DNA from: Lepidostoma basale
Lineage: Eukaryota; Arthropoda; Insecta; Trichoptera; Lepidostomatidae
Length of the DNA stretch: 64,000 nucleotides
Direction of reading: 5' to 3'
Assembly (NCBI GenBank): GCA_022606425.2
Contig: JAHDVF020000164.1
Location: 310,001 to 374,000, forward strand
Of the stretch, positions 1,571 to 61,310 are shown piece after piece (within the stretch, counting starts at the first letter, position 1; the number at the start of each line of letters is the position of its first letter). Both the position numbers and the translations under genes were made by a program. Under the pieces are notes generated by a model. The model had not been told where the DNA came from and made no database searches. It saw nothing but the letters and a program-made list of their open reading frames with translations.

Positions 1571-1612
1571 CTTACCGGTTTCGTTCCAACTGAAATTTTT
1601 ATCAGGGTAAAT
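1571..1612 (-). repeat. degenerate H1 hammerhead-like unit
   Basis: On the minus strand: CUGAUAA (one change from CUGAUGA), an imperfect hairpin, then GAAACCGGUA. It resembles the two better copies just downstream and a further degenerate copy at 57481-57525. Confidence 0.45.
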
Positions 1613-1720
1613 AAAAACAATCTAAATATTTATCAACGTAAACATATATTTACTGTTAATAAAGATCCAAATAAGGTAGGCTACAAGAATGTGTATTCGT
1701 ATCTAAATCAATTTATTTAT

Positions 1721-1765
1721 TAACACCAACCGGTTTCGCTCCCTCCGGGGCTTCGTCAGGGTGAG
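1721..1765 (-). ncRNA. hammerhead-ribozyme-like motif, H1 left arm
   Basis: Minus strand: CACC, CUGACGA, one extra A, helix II hairpin GCCCC/GGAGC-type with one mismatch, GAAA, helix III ACCGGU, cleavage-position U, then GGUG pairing with CACC as helix I. All core boxes are present. Caveats: the extra A after CUGACGA, and a short helix III. Activity is not shown. Confidence 0.55.
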
Positions 1766-1800
1766 AATATAAACTGATAATTAATAAACAGTTATTTCTC

Positions 1801-1845
1801 ATACCCTGAAAAAGCTCCGGCGGGAGCGAAACCGGTTGGTGTTAA
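1801..1845 (+). ncRNA. hammerhead-ribozyme-like motif, H1 right arm
   Basis: Plus strand: CUGAAAA (G8 changed to A), extra A, perfect helix II GCUCC-GGCG-GGAGC, GAAA, ACCGGU, U, GGU. Helix I is ACC/GGU. The core substitution probably inactivates it. Confidence 0.4.
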
Positions 1846-1860
1846 CAAATAAAGTGTTTA

Positions 1861-2746
1861 AGATACAACGGTAAAGCTAAAATGAATTCTACCCGTAGCA
1901 CATTATTTCTTCCTTTTCATAAACATCTATATAATTTTATATACAGAAGATCATACAACGAATGTCTACATAAAATATAATACTATACATTCACCATTTG
2001 GTGAATAAGATTTCTTTTTTCTCGAGATGAAATGAAAAATATATAATGGTATGCCCTAAGAGGAAACCTTAGACTTGATAACAAAAAAAAATTAAACACC
2101 ACTGCCTAGAGGCATCTGAAGAAGTTTCGTCACACGGAAAGAGTCTATTATGAAAAGATCCAGAATAAAATCTACGCTCTATTGTACGGTGTTTCGTTAT
2201 TGAGATTAAAATCAAAGTTTGGAAGATTCTGGGAAATGGAGAAAGGAAAAGTCATTTGTTTCCACGTGTGACTTAAGCTGGGCTCACAATAAAATGAACG
2301 TGTTCTAAAATAAAATTATCAAGTGTTTTTTTTCGTTTTTATTATAATTAAGACGGTGTGATATAAATCGTTTCATTATTGTTGGCTATATTAAATAAAA
2401 CAGATTCATATATTAATATATACATAAATGAAAAAAAAAACAATTTCTTACATTTTCATACCCATTTCAACTAAATCGTATCTTTAGTACAAATATGTTT
2501 TTAGTAATTAATTGTCATGTAAACGGTTAAAATATATAAAAAATTCGTTAGATGTAGGTTATCTTATAGAGTGTTTAATGAAAAAAACTAGAAACGAAAA
2601 ATATTTAGTTTTAGAACGATTAAATAATCTGTAATCCTAATTTTATTTATAATAGTTTACCGATGAAGACGTGTGGAATTTTTTTGTAATGAGTTTGTTT
2701 ATTTACTAAAATGTAATGTTTTGTTTCAATTACCATAAAAAAAAAT
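1861..2746. other. no recognisable feature
   Basis: AT-rich sequence with homopolymer runs. No convincing ORF, inverted repeat or known element end seen. Confidence 0.5.
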
Positions 2747-2835
2747 TATTACAATACTTAGCATATAATTATTGTAATATGCTAAGTATTACAATACTTA
2801 GCATATTACAATACTTAGCATATAATACTTAATAC
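2747..2835. repeat. short palindromic tandem repeat
   Basis: Three direct copies of a TACAATACTTAGCATAT unit plus one inverted copy, giving a locally self-complementary tract. Probably simple-sequence expansion. Confidence 0.7.
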
Positions 2836-2982
2836 ATATTTATGGAAAAATAAAGTAGATGGAATACGGAATGACTCATGGAATAACTATTAATCTTTGG
2901 TGTTTAGGTCTTGAGGTACTGCTTTCTTGGAGATCTTAACATACCCCTTTTTTAATTTTATTTAGTAGTAAGATATTATTAA

Positions 2983-3747
2983 CCCTTAACGTACCGTGTT
3001 CAAAACAAAACGCTCGCTCCCATGTGGTAAGTTCAGTTTACCGCTAACTTTATCTAAATATCAAGCATATGACTAGATGAATCAAAATTAAATTTATGTC
3101 ATCTTGTAGGGAATTTCATTAGGAATAGATCGATATCTATAACATACATGGATTATTTGAAAAACATATCATTATTAATTTTTTTCTGGAACCATGCGAT
3201 TTCTGATATGTAATGCGTCATAGCATACGGGCGACTGGAGATACGGGTATAAACTTGTCTGCGCGCAGCGGCCGGCGGGGCGACGATAAAGGCACCTAGG
3301 CAAAATGTATAGTACGTTCAAGACAACGAGTACGTATTTATATTTGTCCCTTTTGGTAAAGTGTTAATATTTTCACAGTTCTGATATTATTAAGTTGCGT
3401 CCTGCGTTTCCGTCCACAGTGGTATTATTACGTACATATTGAAAAGGTCAAAGATATAATTTATAATACGTTCAAAACAGCGAGTAAGTATTTGTCACTT
3501 TTGATAAAGTTGTAAATATTAGCAAAACAAATTCTACCTTAACACGAATGAAGGTGAGGGCAGTCTTAGAAAATATTTTTTTTTGGGATGAAGGAAGTAA
3601 TTTTTTGCTTTTTTTTTATTACGAAATATTGAGAACACTTCAATGGAGGATTACAATTTTTTTTATAATATTAGGGTCCATAGGTTTTAAGAAAATCAAC
3701 TTTAAATTGGCAGTGGAAACTCAATTTACCACATGGCAACGCGACGG
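2983..3747. mobile_element. piggyBac-like non-autonomous element, copy 1
   Basis: A 765-bp unit flanked by TTAA at 2979-2982 and 3748-3751, the duplication typical of piggyBac elements. The ends begin CCCTTAACGTACCG and, on the other strand, CCGTCGCGTTGCC. A subterminal CCATGTGGTAA is present in inverted orientation at both ends. A second copy lies at 36882-37651, near-identical except for a GC-rich centre. No transposase is encoded; the 67-codon ORF at its right end looks fortuitous. It would depend on a transposase supplied elsewhere. Confidence 0.75.
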
Positions 3748-3751
3748 TTAA

Positions 3752-4194
3752 ATACAGACATTACAAAGTTCCTGAAAATTTTAGATATACACAGTTTTTA
3801 TTCGATGACGATGATAATGTTAACAAATTGACACATAAGCGAGTACCACTAAAAATCATATTTGTTGTCTTGGCTTCCGTGTACCGAATAATGTGTACCA
3901 AAATAAATCCGAAACGAACTTCTTCTGAATTAATATTCTTTTCATTTCATTATCAATAAGATCATTTTCTTTATAGAACATTTTGTGGGTAAAAATAACA
4001 TGTTTCAATAAGACGATGGTAAAAATCAGGTGAAAATATTATTATTCAATCAAATTAAACAATAAAATATAATAATAAGAGCCTTATCTATTTTTAATAG
4101 CACGTTCTGCAGTTCCAGAGTTTTAGAAACGAATTCAAATAATAAAACCCTTGATTTTTTGTTATATCCGTGTAATTGCAGTCTCCTTCTTGAG
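3752..4194. other. no recognisable feature
   Basis: AT-rich spacer between the piggyBac-like element and a SINE remnant. Nothing identifiable. Confidence 0.5.
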
Positions 4195-4325: not shown

Positions 4326-4348
4326 AGTAATTATATGTAGTGGGAAAC

Positions 4349-7689: not shown

Positions 7690-7880
7690 ATAAATAATAA
7701 TTAAATAAAACGATGTTTTTTTAACTACTTCCACTTTTGTCTTTATTTCGACAGCGACCGGTTTCGCCAGGCTCGCTGGCATCGTTCAACAGACTGGTCT
7801 TTCCAGAAGACAATAAACCAGTCTGTCGATGCCAAGAAGTTAAAAAACATAGTTTAATCAATTATTATTTAAAATGAACT
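7690..7880. repeat. H2 palindromic element, internally deleted
   Basis: Left arm (AAACGATGTTTTTTTAACTA... GACAGCGACCGGTTTCGCC) is nearly the same as the arms of the palindrome at 17489-17892. The right arm has CCAGTCTGTCGATGCCA then jumps to AGTTAAAAAACAT, deleting the GAAACCGGTC half. A hammerhead-like variant remains only on the minus strand (about 7750-7792). Confidence 0.7.
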
Positions 7881-8260: not shown

Positions 8261-8536
8261 CATGATGCCAATATAGATATAATAACAAATTCATATTTAG
8301 TATTCACGGACAAAACCTCTATATGTCGTACATTTTATTATTCAAAGAATTTGATTACTTCTTCATTGCAGGTAATAAGCTAATTAAGACACTTCAATTA
8401 CTTTATTCCACTTCCTCAAATCATCACCCTTAATAGAAATATTAAAAATTCTCGGACGCGGACCTTGTCATTAATTTTTATTTATAGAATATGTAGCTAA
8501 ACGTTCTTGTTGAAGAAACCAGAACTATTTTAAAAG
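8261..8536. other. no recognisable feature
   Basis: Unassigned AT-rich sequence. Confidence 0.4.
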
Positions 8537-8780
8537 TAACATACTTAGAAAATTGAAAACAACTTTGTTTAATCCACAAAATATTAAAAAACACGACATG
8601 TTTCGAAGGATACCTCCACTTTCAGGTGTAAAAATATATGTAATTATTATTATCCTCCGAATTATCCTCCGAAACACGTAGTGTTTTTAAATATTTTGTG
8701 GATTAAACAAAGTTATTTTCATCTTTGTTTTTAACAGTTTAAAGTTATTTTCAATTTCTTATGTATATTACTATGGAATT
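8537..8780. repeat. H4 palindromic element
   Basis: Inverted repeat: ACTTTGTTTAATCCACAAAA and an ACACGACATGTTTCG block on the left; the complementary GTGTTTTTAAATATTTTGTGG and AAACAAAGTTATTTTCAA on the right. On the minus strand the left arm has ACAC, CUGAAAG, hairpin, GAAACAUGUC, GUGU, a hammerhead layout with two core changes but a perfect 4-bp helix I. The right arm is further decayed. Related units lie at 25976-26040 and 44690-44770. Confidence 0.7.
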
Positions 8781-8830
8781 CCACAGTGTTAATGCCTTAG
8801 CGCTCAATATTTTAAAAGTGTTGACTTTTT

Positions 8831-9486: not shown

Positions 9487-9757
9487 GAGAATGTCACGAC
9501 AGCTGTTTCGCCAACCGATGTTGGGATCATCAGGTGTTACAAAAAACTAATGTAACAAATAAATAGACTTATATTTATAGGGCAAACGTATTAGTATCTT
9601 TAGTCATAGATAAAATTTAGTATGCGAAATCTGTTGACAATTTTACAAACAAATATAACGAGGGTGGGAAAAAACAGTGTTATTAATTTTAACAGTAATA
9701 ATGTTGAAGTATCATAGTGTTTCGGCCAAAATAATGGACTATTTTATTTTACACTTT
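9487..9757. repeat. H3 element
   Basis: Starts with a hammerhead-like unit (next entry) and ends with the family's TGTTTCGGCCAAAATAATGGA block at about 9716-9740, which recurs at 23840, 31290, 38010, 40615, 44535 and 50505 in one or other orientation. The middle is unassigned. Confidence 0.65.
9490..9540 (-). ncRNA. hammerhead-ribozyme-like motif, H3
   Basis: Minus strand: CAC, CUGAUGA, extra U, helix II CCAAC-AUCG-GUUGG, then C, GAAA, self-complementary ACAGCUGU as helix III, C, then GUG pairing with CAC (helix I). The core is unmodified. Helix III has no loop, which in known minimal hammerheads favours pairing between two molecules. Confidence 0.6.
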
Positions 9758-16200: not shown

Positions 16201-16239
16201 GGTATTATATATTCGCCTATCTATGGCATTATCAAATGT

Positions 16240-16335
16240 ATTATTATATTTTATGATGCCTTAGAAAGGCGAAACATGTCATTTCAATAAAATGTTATAA
16301 AACTTCTAATAAACAGAGGTTTTTATTCGTATTAA
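16240..16335 (+). repeat. H7 unit (half)
   Basis: UUUAUGA, U, perfect helix II GCCUU-AGA-AAGGC, GAAACAUGUC, then AUUUCAATAAAA and the H7 end ACTTCTAATAAACAGAGG. Hammerhead layout, but the CUGANGA box is altered. Other H7 units lie at 22874-22935, 24175-24300, 52884-52990 and 61115-61310. Confidence 0.55.
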
Positions 16336-17425: not shown

Positions 17426-17540
17426 TATTTTAATTCAATACTCAAATGATTTTACTGAAATCTCTTGATGGAAGTTCATTTTAAATAATAATTAAATAAA
17501 ACGATGTTTTTTAACTACTTCCACTTTTGTCTTTATTTAG

Positions 17541-17583
17541 ACAGCGACCGGTTTCGCCAGGCTCGCTGGCATCGACAGACTGG
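17541..17583 (-). ncRNA. hammerhead-like variant, H2 left arm
   Basis: Minus strand: CAGU, CUGUCGA, extra U, helix II GCCAG-CGAGC-CUGGC, GAAA, ACCGGU, C, GCUG; helix I CAGU/GCUG pairs. The only core departure is A6 to U in the first box, shared by every H2 copy. Confidence 0.45.
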
Positions 17584-17797
17584 TAACACTATTGTAAACT
17601 TAGTCCTTTATATACATACAGATCAGAGGTGGTAAACATGAATCTATACAAAAAAAAAAAATTACATAAATATTTGAAGATTATTTTTGTATAAAAAAAA
17701 AAATTACATAAATATTTGAAGATTATTTTTGTATAGAATCATGTATACCACCCCTGATCTGTATGTATATAAAGGACTAAGTTTACAATAGTGTTAC

Positions 17798-17840
17798 CAG
17801 TCTGTCGATGCCAGCGAGCCTGGCGAAACCGGTCGCTGTC
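17798..17840 (+). ncRNA. hammerhead-like variant, H2 right arm
   Basis: Same sequence as the left-arm motif, on the plus strand, with CUGUCGA, helix II GCCAG/CUGGC, GAAACCGGUC and helix I CAGU/GCUG. Confidence 0.45.
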
Positions 17841-17895
17841 TAAATAAAGACAAAAGTGGAAGTAGTTAAAAAACATCGTTTTATTTAATTATAAT

Positions 17896-18602
17896 TCAAT
17901 ACTGTCTAATACGCAGATTTTCATACCCAGTTCAATGTTTTACTGCCGTACCTCAATTTCCAGTATTTTTTTATAAATATAGGATTGATTATGATCTAAA
18001 ACTGTGCGATCTAATTATATAATGTGAATTTTAATATCAAAAAAACTGATTACTTATAATTGAATTTTAATTGTTTTGATTTGAATATTCGCTACCTTTT
18101 AAAATTTCATTTTTTGTCATGTGGAAATCAATAGAAAACAAACACATTAAAGGCTCACGTAGCAAATTGATAAAAATAAAAGCGTTATTTATTTAAAAAA
18201 TTTACTACACATTATATATATGCACCAAATCATCCATCATTTCGTTAAATATTATTTTAAACTGTTTGTCTATGACACTCATTATTTTTCATTATCCATG
18301 TAGGTACCTGGTTTGAAGAATGCTGTTTTTAAGGTAGTATTCATCTTCTTTTTTACCTGAAACAAAGAAAAAACAGTTTTAAACGTATGCAGTATTATAC
18401 CTATAAATGAAATTATGCATGGATGCTTTTTAAATCTTACATATGATACATTAAAACATCAAGTAGAAATTAATTTGAATTTATAAAATAAGATTGAAAT
18501 AATTTTGATAAAACCCTAAGTGCATATTATATACTATTATTATGGGTTTCATCAGTGTTGATAACGGAGACAGAAAGTGTTAAAATATCAAACTTGTCTC
18601 AT
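17896..18602. other. no recognisable feature
   Basis: AT-rich, unassigned, about 700 bp. Confidence 0.4.
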
Positions 18603-19875: not shown

Positions 19876-22415
19876 TTTTTATTTTATTTTATTTATTGTT
19901 ATAAACGGAATAAATTCCAATACATAATTTTCTTACAGACAATTTACTTAAATCTATGAACATTTTAAGAGCAACGGTAAAAATTAAGCCTAAGACGAGT
20001 TAAGTCTGTGCGTCTATGCAGGTAAGTATTGTAATAGGTTTTTGATGAAAAAAGGACACTATTATAAATGAGAATACAGGTATTAAAGATAGGACATAGT
20101 TAAAATTAAGAATACAGGTATAAGATTATAAACGGAGAAGTACAATTATAAAACTAAGACTACAGGTAGGTATATAGATTATTTAAGGACTACAAAAAGA
20201 TTACAAAGGACTCATTCAAATCGACAAAGAAACAGAAGGTTCGAAAAATCGCGTTCATTAATACTATGAACTAGTTTAAAAATAAAAATAAATTAGGGGT
20301 TTGGTAGAGGTCGATACTTTTTAAGTGAAGAAATAAAGGAATTTAGATTTATTCAAAAAAAATCTAAGTCATGACAAGAATTTGCCAGTCTAGTCATTCT
20401 CGGTATAGGTGCATTATATCCATAGTTGGTTTTATGTAGATTTTCGCGGAAAAGTTTAAAATTCCTTAAATTTCGGGTTGGTATATTAAATTTTATACTG
20501 TCGAGTAGACAGGGTGCATCAAAGTGTGAGTTTATAATTTTGAAAAAGGAGATTAAGTCATAATTACTTCTGCGATTAACTAGTGGTGAAATATTCAGTA
20601 GTCTTTCCAGGTCGGAGTAGGAATAGTCTTCTCTATCAAGTCTTAGCATTCGACCAATTTTCCTAAGAAAACGATGCTGTACGGACTCAATATTGGAGAT
20701 GTGGATTTCATAGTATGGAGACCAGACTACTGATGCATATTCTAAGTGAGGACGAACTAAGGCACAATAGAGTGATTTAAGAGTGGATATGTTTTTGAAG
20801 TCGGAAGAAATTCTATTAATAAAGCCAAGAAGTTTATAGGATTTGTTGACAGCTAACTCAATATGTGCGGTGAAAGATAATTTGGAGTCTAGTGTAATTC
20901 CTAGGTCGCGTATGCAGGTTTCACTTGAGAGCTGTATATTGTCAATGCTGTAAGGGTAGTTAATTGGAACATTTTTCCGAAAAAATCTCATAATTTTACA
21001 TTTGCTTGTGTTTAATTTCAGGTCATTATGTACACACCACTCATAAAATGAGATTAAGTCAGCTTGAAGAAGTAGACAATCTTCGGAAGTATTTATGACT
21101 TTAAGAATTTTGTTGTCATCCGCAAATAACCAGAATGAGGAATTATTAATTGACTCATGTACATCATTAATAAATAGATTAAATAGTAAGGGAGCAAGGT
21201 GGGCTCCTTGAGGTACGCCAGAAGTTACAATTATAGGATTAGACAGGAAGTTGTTGATTCGTACAATTTGTTTTCTGTTGTTGAGGTAAGATTTGATAAG
21301 TGAAAGAAATGGGTCTCTTATACCGAGTGCATGTAATTTAGAGAGAAGAATATGGTGATTGACTCTATCGAAGGCCTTGGAAAAGTCAGTGTAAATTACA
21401 TCAAGTTGTTGACTTTGTTCAAGACCTTTTACGATATTATCAGTAAAAGAAAGAAGATTTGTTGTTGTCGATTTCTTGGATCTGAAGCCGTGTTGTTGAT
21501 TGATAAGAATTTGAGTGAAAAGTGGTGTTATTTTGGCCGTTACAATAGATTCAAATAATTTCGGGAAATGTGACAAGATAGAAATAGGTCGATAGTTTTG
21601 GATATCCGCTTTGTTGCCAGTTTTGAATATGGGTTGAATATAAGATAGCTTTCATTTTTCGGGAAATGTTCCGCTTGTGAGAGAGTAATTGAACAAAGTA
21701 CAGAGAGGTTTACATAGAGTGCTTTTACATTTTTTGAGAATTATTTCGGGAATCAAATCCGGTCCTGAGCAGGATTTACCTTTGAGTGAGTTTAATTTGA
21801 TGAGAACATCAGAGGGTTGTAACTGAAGGTGGTTTAAGTCAACTGTTTTATTATAGTTTATTACACGGTTATGGTTGTTTAAATTGATGGAATACACAGA
21901 AGAAAAATGAGATGCAAGAAGGTTGGATATATCTTGACCATTGGATGCTTTAGTATCATTAAGAAACATATTTGAGGGTAGATTACTGTCGGTTCTTTTT
22001 TCGACAACATAGTGCCAAAACTTTTTAGGATTAGAGTTTAATGTTTTTTCTGTTTCCTCTATATAGGAATTATGACATAACATGGATTCAATTTTACATT
22101 GCGATCGAAGATGAGAAAATTGTTTATAATAAGTTAAACGGCCAGTAGATTTGTACAATTTGTGGACTTTTTTTTTCTCGAATATTAATGTTTTAAGTTT
22201 TGAATTGAACCATTTGGGAAATTTAGGTGGAGAGAAAATCCTAGTAGGAATAAATTTTTCAATAGCCTGGGTGAGGATAGAATTAAAATATAGAAGGCTT
22301 TCATTAATATCATCTGTTTTGAAGTGGGAATTCCACTCTACTTGTTCGAGGAACTTATTCATTTCGAAATAATTACCATCGGTATATTTTTTATAAGAAG
22401 TGTTTTTTGAGCTAA
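19876..22415 (-). mobile_element. 5'-truncated LINE nested in an older LINE
   Basis: A minus-strand non-LTR element. Its 3' end at the left is an AT-rich tail (AATAAATAAAATAAAATAAA complement), followed by ~450 bp of untranslated sequence, then the RT ORF, truncated at about 22415. It is flanked by GTGCAT at 19870-19875 and 22416-22421, the target duplication, inside a GTTA-LINE copy that reads continuously once the insert is removed. Hence it is younger than that GTTA-LINE copy. Confidence 0.85.
20353..22411 (-). pseudogene. LINE reverse transcriptase, one in-frame stop
   Basis: Reading from 22411 leftward: the linker between endonuclease and RT (PKWFNSKLK, LYKSTGRLTYYKQF), LNSLKGKSCSGPDLIPE, then a TGA at 21652-21654 in place of the conserved Trp of FPEKW, then in the same frame RPISILSHFP, IYTDFSKAFDRVNH with the motif A Asp, GVPQGAHLAPLLFNLFINDV, and FADD (21115-21126) as the motif C pair. 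The C-terminal tail (RRSNYDLISFFKIIN, LRNFKLF, PIPRMTRLAN) ends in a stop at 20353. A single nonsense change separates two open halves of 407 and about 250 codons, so the copy died recently. Jockey/CR1-like by layout; the endonuclease is absent through truncation. Confidence 0.9.
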
Positions 22416-22535
22416 GTGCATGACACAATGTATGAATGTTGAGGAAGCAAGAGAAATATGCCAACGGAAAAATGTGGCAATCCATTATTTCTGCTTATCC
22501 TTTAAGTGACGGTGTGATGGTTAGTTAGTTTAGTC
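22416..22535 (+). pseudogene. GTTA-LINE fragment, right part of interrupted copy
   Basis: CATGACACAATGTATGAATG through the 3' terminus GACGGTGTGATGGTTAGTTA: the last ~35 codons and tail. It joins 19848-19875 across the nested LINE. Confidence 0.8.
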
Positions 22536-23620: not shown

Positions 23621-23674
23621 ATTATATAACTGTTAATGAAAAAAAAAAATTGTATCACAATTTATTGTGTTTTA

Positions 23675-23722
23675 TTTTACGACAGCTGTTTCATCAACCA
23701 GTGTTGACATCATCAGGTGTAA
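23675..23722 (-). ncRNA. hammerhead-ribozyme-like motif, H3 left arm
   Basis: Minus strand: CUGAUGA, extra U, helix II GUCAAC-ACUG-GUUGAU (one G:U), GAAA, helix III ACAGCUGU, C. Helix I is weak unless AC is bulged (UUAC/GUAA). Core boxes are all intact. Confidence 0.6.
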
Positions 23723-23768
23723 CTCCTGATGATGTCAACATTGGTTGATGAAACAGCTGTCGTAAAGT
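23720..23768 (+). ncRNA. hammerhead-ribozyme-like motif, H3 right arm
   Basis: Plus strand: CUGAUGA, extra U, helix II GUCAAC-AUUG-GUUGAU, GAAA, ACAGCUGU, C, GUAAAG. The core is intact and helix I is short. Confidence 0.6.
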
Positions 23769-23866
23769 AAAATACAATTGTGATACAAAAACAAACTTTT
23801 TTCATTAACAGTTATAAAATGTAAAAGTATTATAGTGTTTCGGCCAAATCATGGACTATTTTAAAA

Positions 23867-24050: not shown

Positions 24051-25339
24051 AAATCACCAAATGATGGCTTCGTATCAAAGTTTAAATATAGTTTTATTAA
24101 TTGTTTATTTGACAATCTATAAAACTCAATATTAAATAATTCATACTAATAAAGACGTCTGGTTTCTCGATATATTATTTTATTTGATGGTAAATACATG
24201 TTTCACCCTACAAAGGCATTACCAAACTTGTGATAATACCCAAGCAAAGCAAAATATGTCACTCCCAATTAACATTTTAAAACTTCCATAAAAAGACATA
24301 TGTATTCATATATGTGTTTTTGTTTTATTACAGTTTTTATAACGTATATAAATCCTGAGATAGACTTCCACAACTTGATTATTGAAATAAAAACATTTTA
24401 ATAAAACTTTAAATAAATCTTTTGTATTAATCAAGATTATTTCATTTACAAAGAAAATACTGTAGTGACAAATCACCTTTTTTAAAAATAAACTCTTCAT
24501 TCTAGAACTAAATTTTATTTGTTTTTAGAGTGTATATGCAATAAAATATAACCTATTCAACCTGTATCTGAAAAAGGGACTATGTGGTGTCTATTTTAAT
24601 ACTCGTATATATTAAAACGAAATGATGATTGTCATTTATTTCTGCGATTCTGTATCTTGCATATCTTGCAAAACATTACCTTTTTCGGTCATTCAATTTC
24701 GTGGACATTTTGACATCCGTCCACACGAGATTAACCGAACCCGACAGTTTGACATGTTCCACATTCGAGCGATTAAAGATAGTCAAAATGACAGAAAAAA
24801 ACGTCAAAATAACAGAAAAAACGTCATAATGACGAATTTCAATAAACATGGGTAGGAGTGCCGGTAAACCTAGTGTTAATTATTAGGAGCCGGCCCTGGA
24901 CAAGAGTAACGAATTTCTTTACGATAGAGTATGAGGTAAAAGGCGACACCCCATAATATAACAGGATTTGAAAACATGTTTTTAAAGCCAGAGATGCCAT
25001 TTCGTTTTAAGCGAGGGTGATTTATGCTTGACGCTATAACTTAAAATATCGGTTTAAATAGCTCTCAACGTCCTCTCCTTTCCTGGCATAACTCAAAATA
25101 AATATTATGTTATTGTCGGGATTCGAAAACGAAGAAAACGTATTAATATCCAACCACTTATGCTCTTACTATATTGATGTTGTTTCATTTTTAAGTGACA
25201 TGCTTTGGAATATTATTATATCAAATATTATCAGAGGTTCCCAAACTTTTTTCCGAATTTTCTCCCGAGACCTTTTTTATTTTTGCCTACCAAATATCGC
25301 ATTTTTCTCAACCCATTAATCGCACATGTGTTTTACGTA
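24051..25339. other. mostly unassigned; H7 remnant and short tandem repeat
   Basis: 24175-24300 is a decayed H7 palindrome (ACATGTTTCACCCTACAAAG, AAAATATGTCACTCCC). 24783-24835 has three ~21-bp units of GTCAAAATGACAGAAAAAA type. Overlapping 66-77-codon ORFs show no domain. Confidence 0.5.
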
Positions 25340-25975: not shown

Positions 25976-26040
25976 ACTTATTATTAAAAAAAAAACACGA
26001 CATGTTTCGGAGGATACTTCCATCTTCAGGCTGCGTAGGC
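25976..26040 (-). repeat. H4 unit
   Basis: CACTTATTATTAAAAAAA, ACACGACATGTTTCGGAGGA and the CATCTTCAGG block; the single left half of an H4 element, as at 8537-8640. Confidence 0.65.
25995..26035 (-). ncRNA. hammerhead-ribozyme-like motif, H4
   Basis: Minus strand: CUGAAGA, extra U, helix II GGA...UCC, GAAA, self-complementary ACAUGU, C, then GUGU. The core is intact. Helix II is only 3 bp here, whereas the related copy at 8590-8631 shows GGAGG-UAU-CCUUC. Helix I is mostly lost upstream (GC/GU). Confidence 0.55.
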
Positions 26041-26390: not shown

Positions 26391-26436
26391 ATACCTGATG
26401 ATGTCAACATTGGTTGATGAAACAGCTGTTGCTGAC
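26391..26436 (+). ncRNA. hammerhead-ribozyme-like motif, H3
   Basis: CUGAUGA, extra U, helix II GUCAAC-AUUG-GUUGAU, GAAA, ACAGCUGU, U (GUU cleavage triplet), G. Core intact; helix I poor. Confidence 0.5.
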
Positions 26437-26487: not shown

Positions 26488-26535
26488 CAATACACCTGAT
26501 GGATGTCAACATAGGTTTATGAAACAGCTGTCGTA
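26488..26535 (+). ncRNA. hammerhead-like motif with insertion, H3
   Basis: CUGAUGGA (one G inserted in the first box), helix II GUCAAC-AUAG-GUUUAU, GAAA, ACAGCUGU, C, GUAAAA. Probably inactive. Confidence 0.35.
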
Positions 26536-29295: not shown

Positions 29296-29460
29296 TTTGT
29301 CACACCTGATGATACCATAATAGGATGGCAAAACGGCTGTTGCAACAAACTCATTAATATAATTTGTGATAAGTACAAATAACAATGTTTCAAAATTAAA
29401 CATTTAATAAGTTATCATAGTGCTTCGATGAAAACAATGGATTATCTAAAAATAAGTTAC
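29296..29460 (+). repeat. H3 unit, decayed
   Basis: CAC, CUGAUGA, then a CCAU/AUGG hairpin, AAAACGGCUGUU, and the H3 end ATCATAGTGCTTCG... AACAATGGATTAT. GAAA has become AAAA. Confidence 0.55.
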
Positions 29461-38099: not shown

Positions 38100-38145
38100 T
38101 ACGCGACAGCTGTTTCATCAACCTATGTTGACCTCATCATTGTAA
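38100..38145 (-). ncRNA. hammerhead-like motif, H3 left arm
   Basis: Minus strand: AUGAUGA (C3 changed to A), extra G, helix II GUCAAC-AUAG-GUUGAU, GAAA, ACAGCUGU, C, GCGUAA. The first-box change probably inactivates it. Confidence 0.4.
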
Positions 38146-38150: not shown

Positions 38151-38199
38151 TGTACACCTGATGATATCAACATAGGTTGATGAAACAGCTGTTGCGTAA
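38151..38199 (+). ncRNA. hammerhead-ribozyme-like motif, H3 right arm
   Basis: Plus strand: UACAC, CUGAUGA, extra U, perfect 6-bp helix II AUCAAC-AUAG-GUUGAU, GAAA, ACAGCUGU, U, GCGUA. Helix I UACAC/GCGUA pairs with one A.C mismatch. Core intact. Confidence 0.6.
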
Positions 38200-44349: not shown

Positions 44350-44560
44350 GATAATTATTAATTTAAACTGTTTATGAAAAAACTTTGTTTTTGTATCACA
44401 ATTGTATTTTATTTTACGCGACAGCTGTTTCATCAACCAATGGTGACATTATCAAGTGTCAAAATTGGTTGTTCAACATCAATAAAAAAACAAAGTTTAT
44501 TCATTAACAGTTTAAAATGTTAAGGTATCACAGTGTTTCGGCCAAAACAATGGACTATTA
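44350..44560. repeat. H3 element
   Basis: Left: AACTTTGTTTTTGTATCAC and a minus-strand motif with CUUGAUAAU, GUCACC... hairpin, GAAACAGCUGUC (first box damaged; 44418-44460). Right: TTCATTAACAGTTTAAAATG through TTTCGGCCAAAACAATGGAC. Confidence 0.65.
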
Positions 44561-44771: not shown

Positions 44772-45922
44772 TTAGGTCCTTACATATGAAATTGGCATTT
44801 TGTATGGGAGGAACATAAAGTTGGTGTTTTTTTAATATAATATATTTATTTAATCAAAGTATGTACCATTGCTATCCATGCACTTTTGCCATCTCATAGG
44901 TAGTTCATCGATCCCTTTACTAAAAAAAACATTCGGACGGGAATCAATAAAATCTTTGAAGTCGGTTTGGGCTGCCCCATCGGAGTTGAATTTTTTCCCT
45001 TGCAAGAAATTATCCAAATTTGGGAAAAAATAGTAATATGTTGGGGCAAGGTCCGGAGAGTACGGTGGATGTCTTAGACATTCCAATTGAAGCTCTTCTA
45101 ATTCGGTAGCCGTCTGTTGTGCAGTGTGTGGTCTAGCGTTATCATGAAGCAGCAGTGGCCTAGAGCGATTAACCAGCCTCGGTTGTTTAGTAGCTAGCTT
45201 TTCCATCATGGTTTGCAGTTGCTGACAATAGACATCTGCCGTTATCGTCTGGCCAGGATTATCATACAGGATCCATTTTTCATCACAGGTAATGATTCGA
45301 TTCAAAATCCCTTCATTATTGTGCCGGTTGAGTAATGCAACGCAGCAGTCAACGCGCGTTTGTTGATTTGCTTCACTCAATTCGTGAGGTTCCCACCTTT
45401 CAAGCTTTTTCACCTTCCCAATTTGCTTCAAGTGGATTAAAACAGTTGTATCACTAACACCGCAGCCTGCAGCTAACTCGGACGTGGTTTGCGACGGATC
45501 CGCTTCCACAATAGCCTTCAATTCTTCATTATCAACTTTGATCTCCGGCCGTCCACGGGGCTTGTTCTGCAGGTCGAAATTTCCAGAACGAAAACGTTGG
45601 AACCAAAAACGCACTGTGTTTTCTTTTGCGGCACCGTCGCTATACACATCATTAATCCTTCGAGCCGTTTCTGCAGCACTGGTGCCACGGTGGAACTCGT
45701 ACTCGGAAATAACGCGATATTTCAAGTTTTCCATTTTGTAAACTGAGTGACGCAAAGAAAAAAACAATTGAGGAAAAAACAAATGAATTATAATTTTCGT
45801 AACACAAATACTTGAGTAAATAGCTGTATAAATTTGAATTTGGAATTCTTAACCAAAGGGAATATATTTGAGATCAAACTTGCCAGTACGGCAAAACGCC
45901 AATTTCATATGTAAGGACCTAA
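44772..45922 (-). mobile_element. mariner element with 31-bp inverted ends
   Basis: 1151 bp with terminal inverted repeats beginning TTAGGTCCTTACATATGAAA (31 bp, one mismatch) and TA duplications at 44770-44771 and 45923-45924. The structure is complete end to end. The transposase gene is on the minus strand and defective. With matching ends it could still be moved by a related transposase. Confidence 0.95.
44850..45734 (-). pseudogene. mariner transposase, deleted and lacking third catalytic Asp
   Basis: An open frame of 294 codons from ATG 45734 (MENLKYRVISEYEFHRGTSA) with the N-terminal paired helix-turn-helix region (RFWFQRFRSGNFD, DPSQTTSELAAGCGVS). The catalytic domain has TCDEKW (first Asp) and LLLHDNARPH (second Asp), but the third Asp of the D,D34D triad is Tyr: the APTYYYFF codon at 45036-45038 is TAT where mariners have GAT. 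About 50 residues are missing after WILYDN compared with the usual ~345. Both defects should abolish cutting. The chosen start lies 48 nt inside the longest open frame, because mariner proteins begin at this motif. Internal-deletion derivatives of mariners are common. Confidence 0.93.
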
Positions 45923-49612: not shown

Positions 49613-49740
49613 ATACAAAATTAAAATAATTTAACACTTAATTTTCTTTTAGATAAATTTAAGACGTAAACACTATGGAATTCCATAATGACGAATTTTT
49701 ATGCATTAAAACACTGTTTTTTCCACTTTTTAGTGTATTT

Positions 49741-49785
49741 TTCTCGATACGTTTCGAAGGCTTACACCTTCATCATCGGGAGATC
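49741..49785 (-). ncRNA. hammerhead-like motif, H5 left arm
   Basis: Minus strand: CUCC-type left side, CGAUGA (first box CCGAUGA), extra U, helix II GAAGG-UGUAAG-CCUUC, GAAA, CGUAUC. Both the first box and helix III are altered. Confidence 0.35.
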
Positions 49786-49809
49786 GATATAAACACGAAC
49801 AGTTTATAT

Positions 49810-49852
49810 CGTTCTCCCGATGATGAAGGTCTTCGAAACATGTCGAGAAAAA
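49810..49852 (+). ncRNA. hammerhead-like motif, H5 right arm
   Basis: Plus strand: UUCUC, CCGAUGA (U4 changed to C), extra U, helix II GAAG-GU-CUUC, GAAA, ACAUGU, C, GAGAA. Helix I UUCUC/GAGAA is a perfect 5 bp. One core change. Confidence 0.5.
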
Positions 49853-49905
49853 TAAACTCAAAAGTGGAAAAAACAGTGTTTTAATTCATAAAAATTCGAC
49901 TTCAT

Positions 49906-50500
49906 TTTCTTTTAGCTATACACAATTCTGTGAAACTCTATAATAAATATACAATATTAATTAAATCGTCTTTATAATCGTCTGTGACAAGATGTTTTAT
50001 TTAATGTGAATGACACTTTTCACCTTGACAAGGAATTGTCAAATTACTTGTCTTAATCCATTATCAGGGATCTTATAAGGATTTTATCCGGGAAAAAATA
50101 TATATTAAGATATCTTGTTGAAGCAACAAAAATATATCTTAATGTCACTATAATACGAGTACATTGTCTCTTATAGCGGAGAAGATTGACCGCCAGACAC
50201 TTGACACTAGGTGAAATTTATTGATATAAACCCTGAGACCCGTAGTACCACGTCTTAAAACTTGACCCCCTTTTTGTTTTTGATTTATTTTGTTGTTTCA
50301 CCCAGCCTTCCTCGAATTAAACTAACATTTCCGCATTACTATACAACATTTTAATCATTTTCCTTAATCTATTCATTCAATTCATTCACGTATCAACAAT
50401 AAATTAGTGATTCAATTTATTGTTTCTTCAACAATGATGTGAATCTTCATATTAAATAACTAATACGAATGAAAACTCTGTTTCTAAAAGTTTTATTAAA
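49906..50500. other. no recognisable feature
   Basis: Unassigned, about 600 bp. Confidence 0.4.
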
Positions 50501-50920: not shown

Positions 50921-50975
50921 ATGCGCTGAAGAAGGGCCTTCTGTGTCCCGAAACATGTCTGTGAACAATTTAAGA
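50921..50975 (+). ncRNA. hammerhead-ribozyme-like motif, H6
   Basis: Plus strand: UGCG, CUGAAGA, extra A, helix II GGG...CCC (3 bp), GAAA, self-complementary ACAUGU, C, UGUG. Helix I UGCG/UGUG pairs with G:U wobbles. Core intact. Confidence 0.6.
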
Positions 50976-51177: not shown

Positions 51178-51228
51178 TATGTATCACTGAAGAAGGACTG
51201 GTTGTCCGAAACATGTCTGATATGTAAT
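51178..51228 (+). ncRNA. best hammerhead-ribozyme-like motif, H6
   Basis: CUGAAGA at 51187-51193, extra A 51194, helix II GGAC (51195-51198), loop UGGUU, GUCC (51204-51207), GAAA (51208-51211), helix III ACAUGU (51211-51216), C at 51217 as the predicted cleavage residue, and helix I of 9 bp between UAUGUAUCA before the core and UGAUAUGUA (51218-51226) after it, with two wobbles. Every conserved hammerhead position is present. The one departure is the additional A before helix II. Confidence 0.7.
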
Positions 51229-52883: not shown

Positions 52884-52990
52884 TTTTTGCTACATTTGAT
52901 AATGCCTTAGAAGGGCGAAACAGGTCATTCTCATAAAATATAATAAAACCTATAGAAAACTGACGTTTTCATTCGTATTATTTATATAAT
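52884..52990 (+). repeat. H7 half-unit
   Basis: UUUGAUAAU, helix II GCCUU-AGA-AGGGC, GAAACAGGUC, AUUCUC, then the H7 end AAACCTATAGAAAACTGACG and TTTTCATTCGTATTA. First box altered. Confidence 0.55.
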
Positions 52991-53522
52991 ATGCTTGTTT
53001 CTGACAACCGTTTAATATGCCTCGGCAACTACAAATCTATTGTAGCTGTGGTCCTACCGGCCCTGGCGGCATTCTAAGTGTATTGGAAAAGCTAGGAGGT
53101 CTTTTACTTGCGAAGATTAATCGTTCCGAGGGAAAAAAAAATATTTGCTAGAGTAAGTGTAATTATTTATTGGGATTCCAAGCTTTTTAAAATACCTTTC
53201 GGGGTGTTTTTGTTCGCTGAAAGAGAAGAATTGAAAATCGATATCTACCTGATAAATAAGAGACACCGTTACGCCTGATTGAAGTTTTTTTAAAGGCAAG
53301 CTGGCCAAGATATTTATAAATATATACATATTTACCATACTGGCTGCCGGATAAATATTCTATTATGTATATAAAAGATCGATTTTTTGCCTTTTTAAAT
53401 CTTTTCTCTCTCTATTTCCTTTTTATGACTAAGATTCAAAGATAGGGATTGATGATATTCTTGGATATTATTGAGAGTATGCTTGTTAAATGAAAAATCA
53501 GTACGTTTAATAATATCAAATT
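52991..53522. other. no recognisable feature
   Basis: Unassigned, about 530 bp. Confidence 0.4.
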
Positions 53523-53865
53523 CTCTTTTTCTTTTTTTATACATTTTGTTTATACAACACTTACATTAAAAAAATTCAAATTACATAGACATATTTCGGA
53601 CAACCAGTCCTTCTTCAGTGATATATATTAAAAAGATACATATTTAAAATATTATAAAATTGTTTACATGATCTGACAGATATTATAAAGCAACATCTTT
53701 CAGATCATGTAAACAATTGTATAATATTTTAAATATGTATAATATGTTTCTATATGAAGAAGGTCCGGTTGTCCGAAATATGTCTATGTAATTAATTTTT
53801 TTTTTGTCTAAGTGTTGCATAAAAGAAGTGTATAAAAAAAAAGAGAAATAAAGCAATTGCAACAC
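53523..53865. repeat. H6 palindromic element
   Basis: Inverted repeat with arms of about 165 bp: TCTTTTTCTTTTTTTATACA, TACAACACTTACATT, ACATAGACATATTTCGGACA, CTTCTTCAGTG, ATACATATTTAAAATATTAT and TTGTTTACATGATCTGA on the left, mirrored on the right. The mirror point is near 53690. Related single units at 50921-51290 and 43050-43180. Confidence 0.9.
53583..53630 (-). ncRNA. hammerhead-ribozyme-like motif, H6 left arm
   Basis: Minus strand: UAUCA, CUGAAGA, extra A, helix II GGAC-UGGUU-GUCC, GAAA, UAUGUC. Helix III is AUAUGU (A:U, U:G, A:U). Compared with 51178-51228, the UGA that paired with UCA in helix I is deleted. The right-arm motif (53745-53795, plus) has AUGAAGA instead of CUGAAGA. Confidence 0.5.
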
Positions 53866-54131
53866 AAAGTATGGCGAATATAGAAGAAATATCAAATTCT
53901 TTTAATGTTTATGAAATATGTAACTTATTTGTAAGTATCCCCGAAAGCAAATTTTCCAAATTCCATTTTTTTGTATTTATTGTATTTATTTACTTGTTTG
54001 AATCTAAATAATCTTCAATTTTGATTAACTAGTATGTGCTGTTAATTTTTCTTATCATTTACACTTGTGGTAACATGTAATTTACCTTATTATATTGTTT
54101 CTATGTGTTTTATTTGTGTACTTTAATCGCT

Positions 54132-54931: not shown

Positions 54932-54985
54932 CTAACCTAACCTAACCTGACCTAACCTCACCTAACTTAACCTAACCTAACCTAC
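54932..54985. repeat. CCTAA (insect telomere-type) tract
   Basis: About ten imperfect CCTAA units (TAACCTAACCTAACCTGACC and on). It forms the 3' tail of the minus-strand LINE fragment next to it and lies inside that LINE's target duplication. Confidence 0.8.
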
Positions 54986-57114: not shown

Positions 57115-57400
57115 ACTATTTGGACATGTCTCGGATTGCATACGCCCTTCTTCAGTTAAAAATAAATAAATAAGTAATTATTTATTAAAATTTGTACACT
57201 TTTAGTTCCAAAGCAGTTTCACTTGTTTCCTGAACAACGATTCAAAACTCCATATATTTTTAATATTAAGTCTTATTACATTACATAACATGACATATTT
57301 TGTGATTTGGATAATGCTATTTGAACATGCCTTAGCATGGCGAAATATGTCATTCCCATTATATAAAATTGCTAGAAAATAGACCTCTTATTGGTATTAA
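57115..57400. repeat. decayed H6 and H7 units
   Basis: 57115-57165 minus: UUAA, CUGAAGA, GGGC...-type hairpin, GAGACAUGUC (GAAA to GAGA). 57310-57360 plus: UUUGAACAU, GCC...GGC hairpin, GAAAUAUGUC (H7-like). Confidence 0.5.
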
Positions 57401-58183: not shown

Positions 58184-58829
58184 TAATAATATTTAATTAA
58201 TAAAGTGTTGAAAAAACAAATCACAAATATTTTCAATAATGCTATACCACAAATACAGTATTTGTTTATTTTCAAAAGTCTATAATAATAAAAAACATAA
58301 ATAAATTATCAAATTTATGAATTATTATTAACGAAAAAAATAACAAGCATACATAAAATTTGTACAATATTTATAAAATATATGACACGACAATATCGCT
58401 AGAGTCGTATAATTTAGTTAGAATATACCCTCAACATATTAAAATTTATTCTATTGATGTTGTACCAATGCCGCGGTACAAAAGAACCCCGAATATAACA
58501 CCTTTTGATATAAATGCTCTTACGTAACCCGGGGCCGCATCCCGCGGCTTACGAACCCCCGGCCTGCGTAGGGGGAGCCAGTTTTACGATAGCGCGAATG
58601 TTCCATACATCATCAGATCTGCGCCGCGTATTTCCACATGCTAAATTATTCATTTCTTTACTTCCCTGATATCCTGTTTGCCGGAATTTACTAGTTCGCT
58701 TTACATTTCCCCGTGTGAACCGTAAAACAACGACATTGAAGGGAGTTAACCCCAAAGTATTAAAAGTTTATTTTGGGGTTCAAAAGACCCAGCAAATTTA
58801 AAACAAAGACTGTTAAAACACATCCGAGA
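58184..58829. other. no recognisable gene
   Basis: 58520-58600 is locally GC-rich. A 68-codon minus ORF (58549-58755) has no recognisable domain. Confidence 0.4.
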
Positions 58830-59215
58830 GTTGACCGGAACCCAGATAGTGGAACAATTTTCTGACTAGCACAGGGCAGAGAAGCGTACACCAGGAGCTC
58901 GCTATTATATTCTACTCAATGTCTGGGCGTGAGATGGATTGGTCATGTGTTACACACGAATGTTTCCTGCATAATATATTGGAGGGAATGGTCGAGGGAT
59001 CGATTGGCAGAAGACGACCTCGCCAAGAGTACCTAGACCAGATTTACCGAGATATGGGCTGCACCTCTTATGTGGAGTTGAAGAGAGTTGCCGAGGATCA
59101 AGCGGAGTGGAAGAGGAGGTGCGTCACCTTGCTGCAGACCAATCGATAGATTGAGACCGGAGAGAGAAAATGTCTGGGATAGACCATAAGATGGCAGCGA
59201 GTTGCCGAAATCAGT
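58830..59215 (+). pseudogene. LINE C-terminal fragment (WIGHVLRHE type)
   Basis: A 76-codon open stretch (58919-59149): HECFLHNILEGMVEGSIGRR, RPRQEYLDQIYRDMGCTSYV, ELKRVAEDQAEWKRR. The order (nearby WSCVTHECFLxNxLEG, GRRRPRxEYLxQI, SYxELKRxAEDxxxW) is a LINE terminus unlike the others here. Start and upstream part are frameshifted. Confidence 0.75.
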
Positions 59216-59270
59216 CGGAACATAAATAATACATGTCATAAAACATATAATTTATTTACCTATTTTTCTT

Positions 59271-59410
59271 ATTCTGCCTTCCTCTCTTCACTGCTGGATA
59301 TAGGCCTCTTACATTTTCCTCCACTCGTTCCTTTCTTCTCCCTTTCTCTCTGTCCTTTTTCATCCAAGCTCCAGCTATTCGGGCAACGTCGTCAGTCCAT
59401 CTTTGAAGTC
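59271..59410 (-). pseudogene. LINE C-terminal end
   Basis: Minus strand, broken: DDVARIAGAWMKKD, then REKKGTSGGKC-like and ISSSEERKAE-like readings. A short RTE-like terminus abutting the next fragment. Confidence 0.55.
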
Positions 59411-59412
59411 AT

Positions 59413-60060
59413 CGTCATCATCGGCTGTCCCTCGTATCCGAGGAAGACTGTCCTTCGCGGTTGTGGGTCCGCATGTGACTGAAGAGCCCGATCCCGGACC
59501 CAGATATTTTGGGGCATCTGGGGCAGGGGAAGGCGCCTGTAGTGGAGCCGTCACCGTCTCCCAGTGGTTTCTCCTTTCTCCTCCTCTCAGCGACGTCTCT
59601 GCGCTGTGCTTCAGAGTCTTGTGTGCCTTTATGTACTGCTATTCTCCACCTAGGTCTGTCCTCTGCAGTCTTTTCCCAGCAATTACAGTCGATGCCAGTC
59701 TTTTGTAGGTTTCCTCTGCACACCGTGTGAGCGTTTTCCTTGGGTAAGCTGAGAGTACATAATCTTCCTTGGGAGTCTTGCCTCAGGCATTCTAACGACG
59801 CGTCCAGCCCAGCGCAGTTGTTTTCTTCCAGCCTATCTTTCTTTCTCCACGGCCTCCATTGAAGTATTCTGGATGTTCCTCAGATACTGCCTTGTCTGAC
59901 TATATGTCCAGCCCACTGCCACTTCAATTTAGCAGTATAACTTGGGTTCGGCATTTTATATCTTCATTTCCTGTTTTGTCTCAAAGACTCACGCTGAGCG
60001 TGTGCCTCTTCATGGAGCGTTGTGGGCTTTTTAATTTGTGGATACTTTATGCTGTGAGGG
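59413..60060 (-). pseudogene. LINE C-terminal region with CCHH zinc finger
   Basis: Minus strand, upstream to downstream: PEARLPRKIMYSQLTQGKR-like and HGVQRKPTKD-like readings in broken frame, then a 101-codon open stretch (59418-59723) with RPRWRIAVHKGTQDSEAQRR, a charged AERRRKEK segment and CPRCPKISGSGIGLFSHMRTH (CX2CX12HX3H), a C2H2-type finger. A C-terminal finger after the RT tail is known from several animal LINE groups and is thought to aid nucleic-acid binding. The 3' end is CCGATGATGACGATGAC. Confidence 0.75.
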
Positions 60061-60245
60061 TTGTTTACTACAAATAATTTTTATTTTCATTATGTTTTTT
60101 ATTTTGACGACCTTATTTCCAATGTGTATTGAACCACTTTTGTACAAATAAGCATTATAATATATAAGATAATTTGAAGGCGTAAATACTCGTACAATAA
60201 TACATCAACATTATTAACTGTTTAATTGGGAGTACTGTTATAATA

Positions 60246-60473
60246 TGCGGTCTCCACGGAGATCGACGTCTTTCATATTAGAGAAAGTACGTTCAGAAGG
60301 AAAATAATCTTGACATTGGAGAGTATCTTGTTTTCCTAATTTCGAAATATCTGTCATGCGTTTCTTGTAGTTTACTTTATGTAATATTTTATTTTACCTG
60401 CTCTCAATAGATACCTTAAACCTTAATTTTGTAATGTTTATTGATGAAATAAACTGATTTGGTTCGATTGGAA
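60246..60473 (+). pseudogene. GATTT-tailed LINE, 3' end
   Basis: NAVSTEIDVFHIRESTF in plus frame, then the 3' UTR (GGAGAGTATCTTG, CTCAATAGATACC) and GAAATAAACTGATTTGGTT. Third copy of this family. Confidence 0.7.
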
Positions 60474-61114
60474 TATCACAATCAATTAAATTAAATTAAG
60501 TATTCAAAATTTCATTAGTATTTTGAAATGAATCCAACGTTGATAAGAGACAGGAATCGAGATTGTTTCTTATTTTAAATTAAATAAATTATAAAATTAT
60601 AACAGTGTTTCAAATAAAACAGTTAATAATATTATATAAGAAATAATGCGACAAATTATTTAAAACGAGATCTCTCGAACCCTACTTGGTAGAAGAGGGT
60701 TGAGAGTACGCCTAAAGGGGTGAGACAGGTAGTGCATGAATGTTGAAGATATGTACTTTATGTCAGGTTATATACATCACACTCTTCTCGACATATGTAC
60801 ATAATTTTCGTGCGAAGCTTTCGCACAATGGCAACAGTCCTTCATACTGTTAGAATTTAGTGCGGTTATGTGTAGTTGCTGATAACATATTATTAAATAA
60901 TTTATTTAAAAAATAACTGTATGCCATTTTTTGGTAATACGCCAAGACACAAAAATACAAAATTTGCGTACGAAGCATTCACTCTTTGTTTAGACATGTT
61001 AAACTTAAAATCAAATAATAAATCACTTTTTATTAAACAACTACACAATATAATAACAAAATTAATATTTATTATTTCTTGAACAATAATGTAAAACTTC
61101 ATATTAAATAATTA
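60474..61114. other. no recognisable feature
   Basis: Unassigned, about 640 bp. Confidence 0.4.
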
Positions 61115-61310
61115 ATACGAATGAAAACGTCAGTTTTCTAGAAGTTTTATTATATTTAATGGTAATGACATGTTTTGCCCTTCTAAGGCATTATCAAATG
61201 TTTAACAATTGAAATGCCTTAGAAGGGCGAAACATGTCATTTCCATAAAATATAATAAAACTTCTAGAAAACTGACATTTTCATTGTATTAATTACGAAA
61301 TTAATAATTT
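61115..61310. repeat. H7 palindromic element
   Basis: Inverted repeat, arms of about 90 bp: ATTAATACGAATGAAAACGT, TTTTCTAGAAGTTTTATTAT, ATGACATGTTTTGCCCTTCT on the left, mirrored on the right (GGCGAAACATGTCATTTCC). Helix II GCCUU-AGA-AGGGC is present in both arms, but the first box reads UUGAUAA (left) or UUGAAAU (right), so a working hammerhead core is doubtful. Confidence 0.85.

Follow-up and report, generated by a model that had tools for sequence, protein, structure and literature searches.

Hammerhead-like units recur throughout a 64-kb stretch of the Lepidostoma basale (Trichoptera) genome (GenBank assembly GCA_022606425.2, contig JAHDVF020000164.1, positions 310,001 to 374,000), which we call the window; the assembly comprises 768.8 Mb in 1572 contigs. 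We think it quite probable that these units are the 3' ends, each a pseudo-long terminal repeat (pLTR) plus a tail, of several diverged, endonuclease-bearing lineages of Penelope-like elements (PLEs), and that their head-to-head pairs arose by priming from both ends of a target break. The component parts of this picture are already known. The sharper result is that the two arms carry opposite tails in every scored pair of one family, family E. Units were sorted into families A to G by stem II, helix III and flanks, and the assignment of diverged units is approximate.

A reverse transcriptase element with family-E ends

The locus L021, which lies outside the window, contains a 747-aa frame with matches to reverse transcriptase (RT; RVT_1, 1.2e-13) and the GIY-YIG endonuclease (EN; 4.8e-5). 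Inverted repeats of 456 nt flank the frame, and each holds the family-E hammerhead known from the window, as is also seen in L022; one of the two L021 hammerheads has one changed helix III base. L021 and L022 share flanks and breakpoints and hence look like one insertion on two contigs. The first-pass annotation of the window had described the repeats as Penelope-derived and had proposed a search for a Penelope-type RT with the same terminal repeats. For family E this search was positive, and, as judged from sequence, the derivation of the units from Penelope elements stands firmly.

The L021 frame lacks the usual N-terminus, and relatives having one are mostly about 810-860 aa. Among 7995 candidates scored, 1870 proteins were homologous to it at E≤0.001. 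The top homologues are mostly unnamed metagenomic proteins, with locusts and beetles also represented, and the best named relatives come from two Lepidoptera, Phthorimaea (a moth; species read as operculella), which ranks first, and Euphydryas editha.

A GIY-YIG profile search of the genome gave at least 62 matches, the best 150 of 541 candidates being scored. We examined 52 loci chosen by GIY-YIG match, a set that leaves eight of the 62 matches outside and includes overlapping loci (L006/L025, L012/L031, L019/L029); selection by GIY-YIG match disfavours copies that are short or old. A DNA search of the genome with the family-E arm of the window gave at least 45 matches (best 40 of 90 candidates scored). 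B-type units lie 357-591 nt downstream of GIY-YIG matches in L004, L016, L017 and L018. In L020, three family-E units of differing age and one orientation lie within 2 kb (870-2890), possibly as a partial tandem or as separate insertions.

Tails and the start of the reading frame

In six of the seven families there are copies in which an ATG follows the predicted cut, in most cases at 48-97 nt. The distance is 48-67 nt in A, 59-72 nt in B, 86-97 nt in C, 66 nt in E (69 in one), 59 nt in F (192 nt in one match, and one without ATG) and 57-64 nt in G (109 in one, and one match without ATG). Neither of the two family-D units has an ATG or start peptide downstream of the predicted cut. Counted with family patterns that we drew from the tails, and with overlapping loci counted twice, start peptides follow 6/19 units in A, 8/19 in B, 5/11 in C, 26/60 in E, 3/6 in F and 5/20 in G. 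When compared with the N-termini of 11 mutually related PLE proteins, which we picked from 120 listed, the tail peptides of A, B, E, F and G scored above all 20,000 random placements in the same proteins, and for family C the fraction was 0.00075 of random placements.

Among 15 units with their flanks, BLAST linked different families in two cases at E≤1e-3, matching B to F at the start codon and E to F within the leader. As the first-pass annotation had stated, there is almost no common sequence outside the motif, and the families did not arise recently from a single sequence. Together with the match of the tail peptides to PLE N-termini, this near-null result indicates lineages whose DNA has diverged beyond the reach of BLAST and whose frame start is still recognisable. 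Of the "seven or more unrelated" families first proposed, the seven diverged lineages stand, while "unrelated" goes too far for the at least five that keep a recognisably related reading-frame start.

Family-E copies stop at one of two sites. Short tails end just ahead of the ATG of the open reading frame (ORF), and long tails run about 40 nt into it. Another family-E ATG lies at stem II and reaches a stop after 11 codons, whereas the frame matching PLEs begins 66 nt past the cut. Given this early stop, the stem II codon might open a small upstream frame or be a relic.

Head-to-head arms end in opposite tails

Many units of the window form head-to-head inverted pairs with their 3' ends outward. 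Five pairs, none assigned to a strand, are given here with their arms, and the A23, A38 and D pairs appear with their units further below.

8538-8807, family B pair; minus arm with short tail, plus arm with a degenerate unit and a long tail with ATGGAATTCCACAGTG start; common flanking string TATTTTAAAAGT at 8526-8537 and 8808-8819
17443-17891, family E pair, a short PLE copy with arms 97% complementary and the hammerhead of the RT and GIY-YIG element L021; minus arm with long tail, plus arm with short tail; flanks TAATTCAATACT at 17431-17442 and 17892-17903
49653-49903, family F pair; minus arm with long tail (MEFHSV start), plus arm with short tail; common flanking string ATTTTCTTTTAG at 49641-49652 and 49904-49915
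53525-53887, family C pair; minus arm with short tail, plus arm with long tail (MANIEE start); common flanking string AATATCAAATTCT at 53512-53524 and 53888-53900
61120-61285, family G pair of two degenerate units; minus arm with long tail with MKFYIIVQE start

Pairs B, C and F share the layout of the E pair. In all four, the strings measure 12-13 bp and lie 57-63 nt from the cut of one arm and 95-123 nt from that of its partner; the chance rates for B, C, E and F are 2.7%, 0.3%, 1.3% and 0.7%, respectively. By eye, the pairs A38, A23 and G have an ORF start on one side.

To the family-E pair of the window we added 22 pairs from the loci, all with arms at least 92% identical to the L021 reference. 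All 23 pairs thus scored have one arm that stops within reference positions 2706-2726 and a partner that stops within 2753-2765, an outcome with a probability of 1.2e-7 if tails were independent and had even odds. A pattern search of the first 32 loci and the window agrees on the tails wherever both arms of a pair were matched. Target-site duplications of about 8-15 bp are a mark of PLEs with a GIY-YIG endonuclease. Flanking strings of at least 11 bp are common to both sides in 18 of the 23 pairs, compared with 0.2% of 506 mismatched flank pairs; the remaining five have strings of 9 (L009), 8 (L052), 7 (L039), 6 (L050) and 5 bp (L021, beside a TA repeat). Within a pair, the two arms begin at different points, with a median offset of 625 nt and a maximum of 2260 nt. 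Most of the examined family-E copies consist of head-to-head 5'-truncated arms that lie within a single target-site duplication and have one tail of each kind, short and long. A rule that the longer arm always has the long tail was dropped, as it was true in 13 of the 23 pairs.

At the arm junction of the family-E pair in the window there is a perfect 42-bp tandem duplication (17651-17735), perhaps filler DNA. Two family-E insertions, at L036 ~2457-2471 and L006 ~250-270, are nested, with the duplication next to or in the GAAACATGT hammerhead end of another family.

The arrangement of the copies also bears on the suggestion, made in the first-pass annotation, that they might be retrozymes, which in metazoans are small non-autonomous elements with type I hammerheads that spread via circular RNA. 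Type I hammerheads have been described in insect repeats (passages of PMC7229834), and the elements of the window measure a few hundred bases. Retrozymes, however, are direct tandem repeats of about 150-450 bp, and Tandem Repeats Finder (TRF) found no such array in the window, where the units form head-to-head inverted pairs instead. Direct pLTR repeats were also absent from the nine PLE loci tested (L021-L029), and the units coincide with the ends of an RT and EN element and with its ORF start. We rejected this explanation, which we regard as very improbable.

Hammerhead units of the window

We scanned the window with a strict pattern (CTGANGA, stem II, GAAA and helix III) and used ten Markov shuffles as controls. 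The strict scan gave 9 matches, compared with 0-1 per shuffle, and a scan with one core mismatch and a 6-nt palindrome gave 16, compared with 0-2. Looser scans were far less selective, with 21, 35 and 67 matches in the window against 2-11, 3-14 and 25-43 in the shuffles. The hammerhead core first noticed in the window is thus confirmed as real and above chance. All ten units cited at the outset are present, nine by the strict scan; the tenth (1721-1765) has one stem II mismatch, which puts it outside the strict scan, and was found by alignment and model search. A covariance model built from 23 window units lists 30 at E≤0.013, in agreement with the "about 30" counted before; these are its 23 training units and 7 further ones. 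The individual units follow, with the method of detection in brackets ("model" being the covariance model).

1728-1759, minus: D, core intact, left arm of pair 1699-1866 (alignment, model)
1806-1837, plus: D, core G8 changed, right arm of pair 1699-1866 (scan, alignment, model)
7756-7792, minus: E, diverged, insertion in core (alignment, model)
8595-8625, minus: B (scan, model)
9498-9533, minus: A, strict core (strict scan, model)
16204-16242, minus: weak hammerhead-like unit, G-like (model, E 0.013)
16250-16280, plus: G, two core changes (scan, model)
17546-17578, minus: E, CTGTCGA-T-stem II-GAAA-CCGG-T-C (scan, alignment, model)
17802-17834, plus: E (scan, alignment, model)
23681-23716, minus: A, strict core, left arm of head-to-head pair A23 (strict scan)
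23726-23761, plus: A, strict core, right arm of A23, long tail with degraded ORF start (strict scan)
24188-24232, minus: diverged unit, G-like (model, E 0.004)
25999-26029, minus: B, strict core (strict scan, model)
26395-26430, plus: A, strict core, helix I broken (strict scan, alignment, model)
26496-26532, plus: A, one core insertion (scan, alignment, model)
29299-29348, plus: diverged unit, A-like (model, E 0.003)
38105-38140, minus: A, left arm of A38, long tail encoding MLRYHSDSAKTMDY (model)
38158-38193, plus: A, strict core, right arm of A38 (strict scan, model)
44420-44455, minus: A, two core changes (scan, model)
49748-49779, minus: F (scan, model)
49817-49844, plus: F (scan, model)
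50926-50959, plus: C-related, strict core (strict scan, model)
51187-51217, plus: C, strict core, 6-bp helix I (strict scan, model)
52889-52939, plus: diverged unit, G-like (model, E 8e-4)
53588-53618, minus: C, strict core, helix I broken (strict scan, model)
53754-53784, plus: C, one core change (scan, model)
57116-57162, minus: diverged unit, C-like (model, E 3e-4)
57321-57351, plus: G, diverged (scan, model)

Matches of the window to Rfam models for microRNAs (miRNAs), small nucleolar RNAs and small RNAs were all weak and below the gathering score, and we rejected them as chance; several of the miRNA-like matches were rejected because of their position on inverted repeats. The plant miRNA models MIR841 and MIR868 fell, far below cut-off, on the inverted repeats 17573-17806 and 23624-23818, a result that we put down to long hairpins.

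Helices I and II covary between families

The units carry what is predicted to be a minimal type I hammerhead, with a short palindrome as helix III. A perfectly palindromic helix III occurs in 87 of 110 units (ACATGT in 37, ACCGGT in 30 and ACAGCTGT in 20), a count based on 123 units picked from model matches in the window and loci, less 13 without GAAA, and made with a search model that favours palindromes. The innermost pair of helix III, which is impossible within one hairpin and would need two molecules, switches among A-T, C-G and G-C from family to family and remains a pair.

For a permutation test we chose one representative of each family, added the C-related unit at 50926 to make eight, and redealt their 3' strands in all 40,320 ways. 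Between families, helix I keeps 30/32 pairs (permutation mean 14.9, none higher, p 5e-5) and helix II keeps 29/32 (permutation mean 17.0, p 1e-4), which bears out the compensatory change that had been suspected in both helices. Over all 16 units of the permutation set the counts are 51/64 for helix I and 59/64 for helix II, and helix I is broken in some copies, such as 53588. An alignment with 22 distinct rows (A2) has 84.8% pairing cells, compared with 65% when shuffled and 20-46% when slid, and a covariation score of 0.586, compared with 0.222 after shuffling; the A2 structure was drawn from the same sequences that were tested, which favours these pairing figures.

One extra base stands between the CUGANGA box and stem II. 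It is A or U in 16/16 units of the permutation set and, among the 23 alignment rows, where it follows A9, U in 16, A in 6 and G in one (38105). The stem II register with the extra base accounts for the 59/64 pairs, and the adjacent registers give 25 and 34. The letters GAUG occur at this site in 11 of the 23 rows. RNA co-folding gave hammerhead-like folds for some families and not for all, and we did not take it as evidence. A further hammerhead family is seen at L019 3037-3082 on the minus strand (CTGAGGA, stem II GCTC/GAGC, helix III ACCGGT and a 3-bp helix I), a unit that the covariance model found despite its absence from the training set.

The inverted-repeat layout and the target duplications would also suit miniature inverted-repeat transposable elements (MITEs) of DNA transposons, whose terminal or subterminal inverted repeats would then be hammerhead-like by convergence. 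Against this, the helices covary across families, the arms are 5'-truncated at varying points, the long ends fall inside the start of a PLE reading frame, and for family E the explanation is already contradicted by RT and GIY-YIG in the same repeats. We rejected this explanation, which we find hardly credible.

Origin of the inverted pairs

Insertion from both ends of one break would account for arms with opposite tails within one duplication. In this process the ribozyme would cut the transcript, probably as a dimer, and so set the 5' end of the mRNA, and RNA uncut across the ribozyme site would be the template. Cut RNA would be unusable as template unless circularised, because both start sites lie beyond the ribozyme cut; cleavage would split transcripts between message and template. 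The endonuclease would make a staggered break of about 12 bp, and both target 3' ends would prime reverse transcription, one per start site, each on its own RNA copy or on two units of one long RNA. The first strands would halt at different points and be joined midway, giving an inverted pair. Our guess is that the palindromic helix III would let two RNAs be held together. Consistent with such a scheme, work on Anolis found that its PLE protein cuts both strands and extends them, that reverse transcription begins at internal sites, and that two such start sites delimit a "tail" (PMC11167929).

A more specific version is asymmetric two-ended target-primed reverse transcription, with one break, two primers and two RNA templates, usually from one source locus, and with a proximal and a distal start. 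The palindromic hammerhead would hold the templates as a dimer, so that template pairing, no less than cleavage, might account for the odd, minimal helix III. We put this version forward as tentative and somewhat doubtful.

Alternatively, the units could be Penelope ends whose pairs arose by self-priming, in which a hairpin ending the antisense template or the first cDNA is extended back over itself. This was proposed for Adineta vaga, where head-to-head is the commonest inverted arrangement and where palindromes at the junction led to the inference of antisense self-priming (passages of PMC3846280). We compared arms in the region upstream of the pLTR, where variants are numerous enough (those in the pLTR are too few to separate templates), and repeated the comparison without ribozyme and tail, since arm ends inflated some distances. 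The arms of one pair usually have a common haplotype and differ at 6/160 segregating-site comparisons, compared with 33% between elements, as self-priming would predict, and in L027 arms of 1133 nt, 1 nt apart, scored 100% complementary. The partner arm is the nearest relative in five of the seven pairs tested; in the other two, L030 and L049, another element is nearer, which does not suit a copied-back arm. Such an arm should also keep the tail site of its template, yet all scored pairs have opposite tails, and the differences in arm start would call for a long snap-back loop. Hence, we consider self-priming unlikely and favour priming from both ends.

Several points weigh against two-ended priming by hammerhead-bearing PLEs. 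Among the pairs of the window, four of eight are without clear duplication (A23 and A38 with 8 nt, D with 7 and G with 9), and the string of pair B has the chance rate of 2.7% given above. Diverged family-E pairs fall outside the scored set; of these, L020 321-973 looks long/short and L050 2012-2208 is ambiguous. Seven family-E loci have an arm without a detected partner (L012/L031, L013, L020, L032, L034, L035 and L041). Of five such lone arms tested, four are flanked by common strings of 10-13 bp and one by 5 bp; therefore, single-ended insertions also occur. An intact reading frame was seen in family E alone, and A, C, D, F and G are unlinked to one. Hammerhead cleavage is here a prediction from sequence. 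In A2, helix I is intact in just 68% of cells, and pairs changed on both sides number 7, a value reached by 89/500 shuffles, while four other measures exceed the shuffles. The Rfam hammerhead models matched nothing in the window, whether at gathering score or at E≤10, and a search of one 361-nt window stretch alone was equally negative. A genome-wide search with RF00008 also gave no match and is uninformative, because the same search of 14 control genomes gave none.

Published work adds further points on the same side. The Anolis study reports that hammerhead mutants insert normally in vitro, hammerhead cleavage requires the protein, no RNA-seq reads start or stop at the cut site, which speaks against a role in making message, and the start site is the same for top and bottom strands (PMC11167929). 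Head-to-head PLEs have been attributed to self-priming on an antisense template (passages of PMC3846280). In the titles, abstract openings and passages of the literature searched, from which subscription papers were largely absent, we found no statement of two-ended PLE priming, and we claim no priority for it.

Relation to known systems

Minimal type I hammerheads of PLEs (Cervera and de la Pena 2014; Lunse, Weinberg and Breaker 2017), as described in passages of PMC7761336, PMC6466107 and PMC11167929, have thousands of dispersed copies in animal genomes (PMC7761336, PMC6466107). They resemble the present units in their reduced palindromic helix III, their location in pseudo-LTRs and their likely action as dimers (PMC7761336, PMC6466107). 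Unlike those described, the present units include seven families in one 64-kb insect window, with covariation across families. They also have an extra base after A9.

The element Poseidon PAc of Anolis carolinensis (PMC11167929) likewise has RT and GIY-YIG, two RT starts that bound the tail, and cutting and extension of both strands in vitro. Its ORF is reported to begin at hammerhead stem II, and the cut falls 26 bp after; in family E the corresponding ATG is 27 nt from the cut. In family E, by contrast, the frame from the stem II ATG ends after 11 codons and the PLE-like frame starts 66 nt past the cut. PAc also occurs in tandem repeats and is reported to show no strand difference in start, whereas the copies here are head-to-head with opposite tails.

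Penelope of Adineta vaga (passages of PMC3846280) has inverted, head-to-head pseudo-LTRs, a tail that is optional on one pLTR and an ORF start inside the pLTR and tail, as here. Its duplications are of 8-10 bp, some copies have none, and partial direct tandems also occur. Its inversion was ascribed to antisense self-priming, and the passages give no count of opposite tails, which we found in 23/23 pairs. Metazoan retrozymes share the type I hammerhead motif and small size with the window units and differ in their direct tandem repeats and, in canonical members, in their loop contacts (passages of PMC7229834).

Other features of the window

A 310-aa frame at 44850-45782 on the minus strand is mariner transposase-like, as judged from sequence, and lies near B-like and A-type units. 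By the same kind of judgement, frames of 407, 277 and 508 aa at 20353-22485 (minus) and 61983-63509 (minus) resemble the RT of long interspersed nuclear elements. An interstitial CTAAC array of 10.6 copies lies at 54932-54984; it is the complement of TTAGG, the telomere repeat of insects, and, like the mariner-like and LINE-like frames, gives the window the look of insect DNA.

Significance

The role of the hammerhead in Penelope elements has been described as unknown (passages of PMC7761336), and the origin of inverted PLE copies is unsettled. Opposite tails within one duplication provide a readout that separates two-ended priming from self-priming, and this readout is applicable to any genome having such elements. 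The seven ribozyme families together provide natural covariation sets for a hammerhead variant that the Rfam models missed here.

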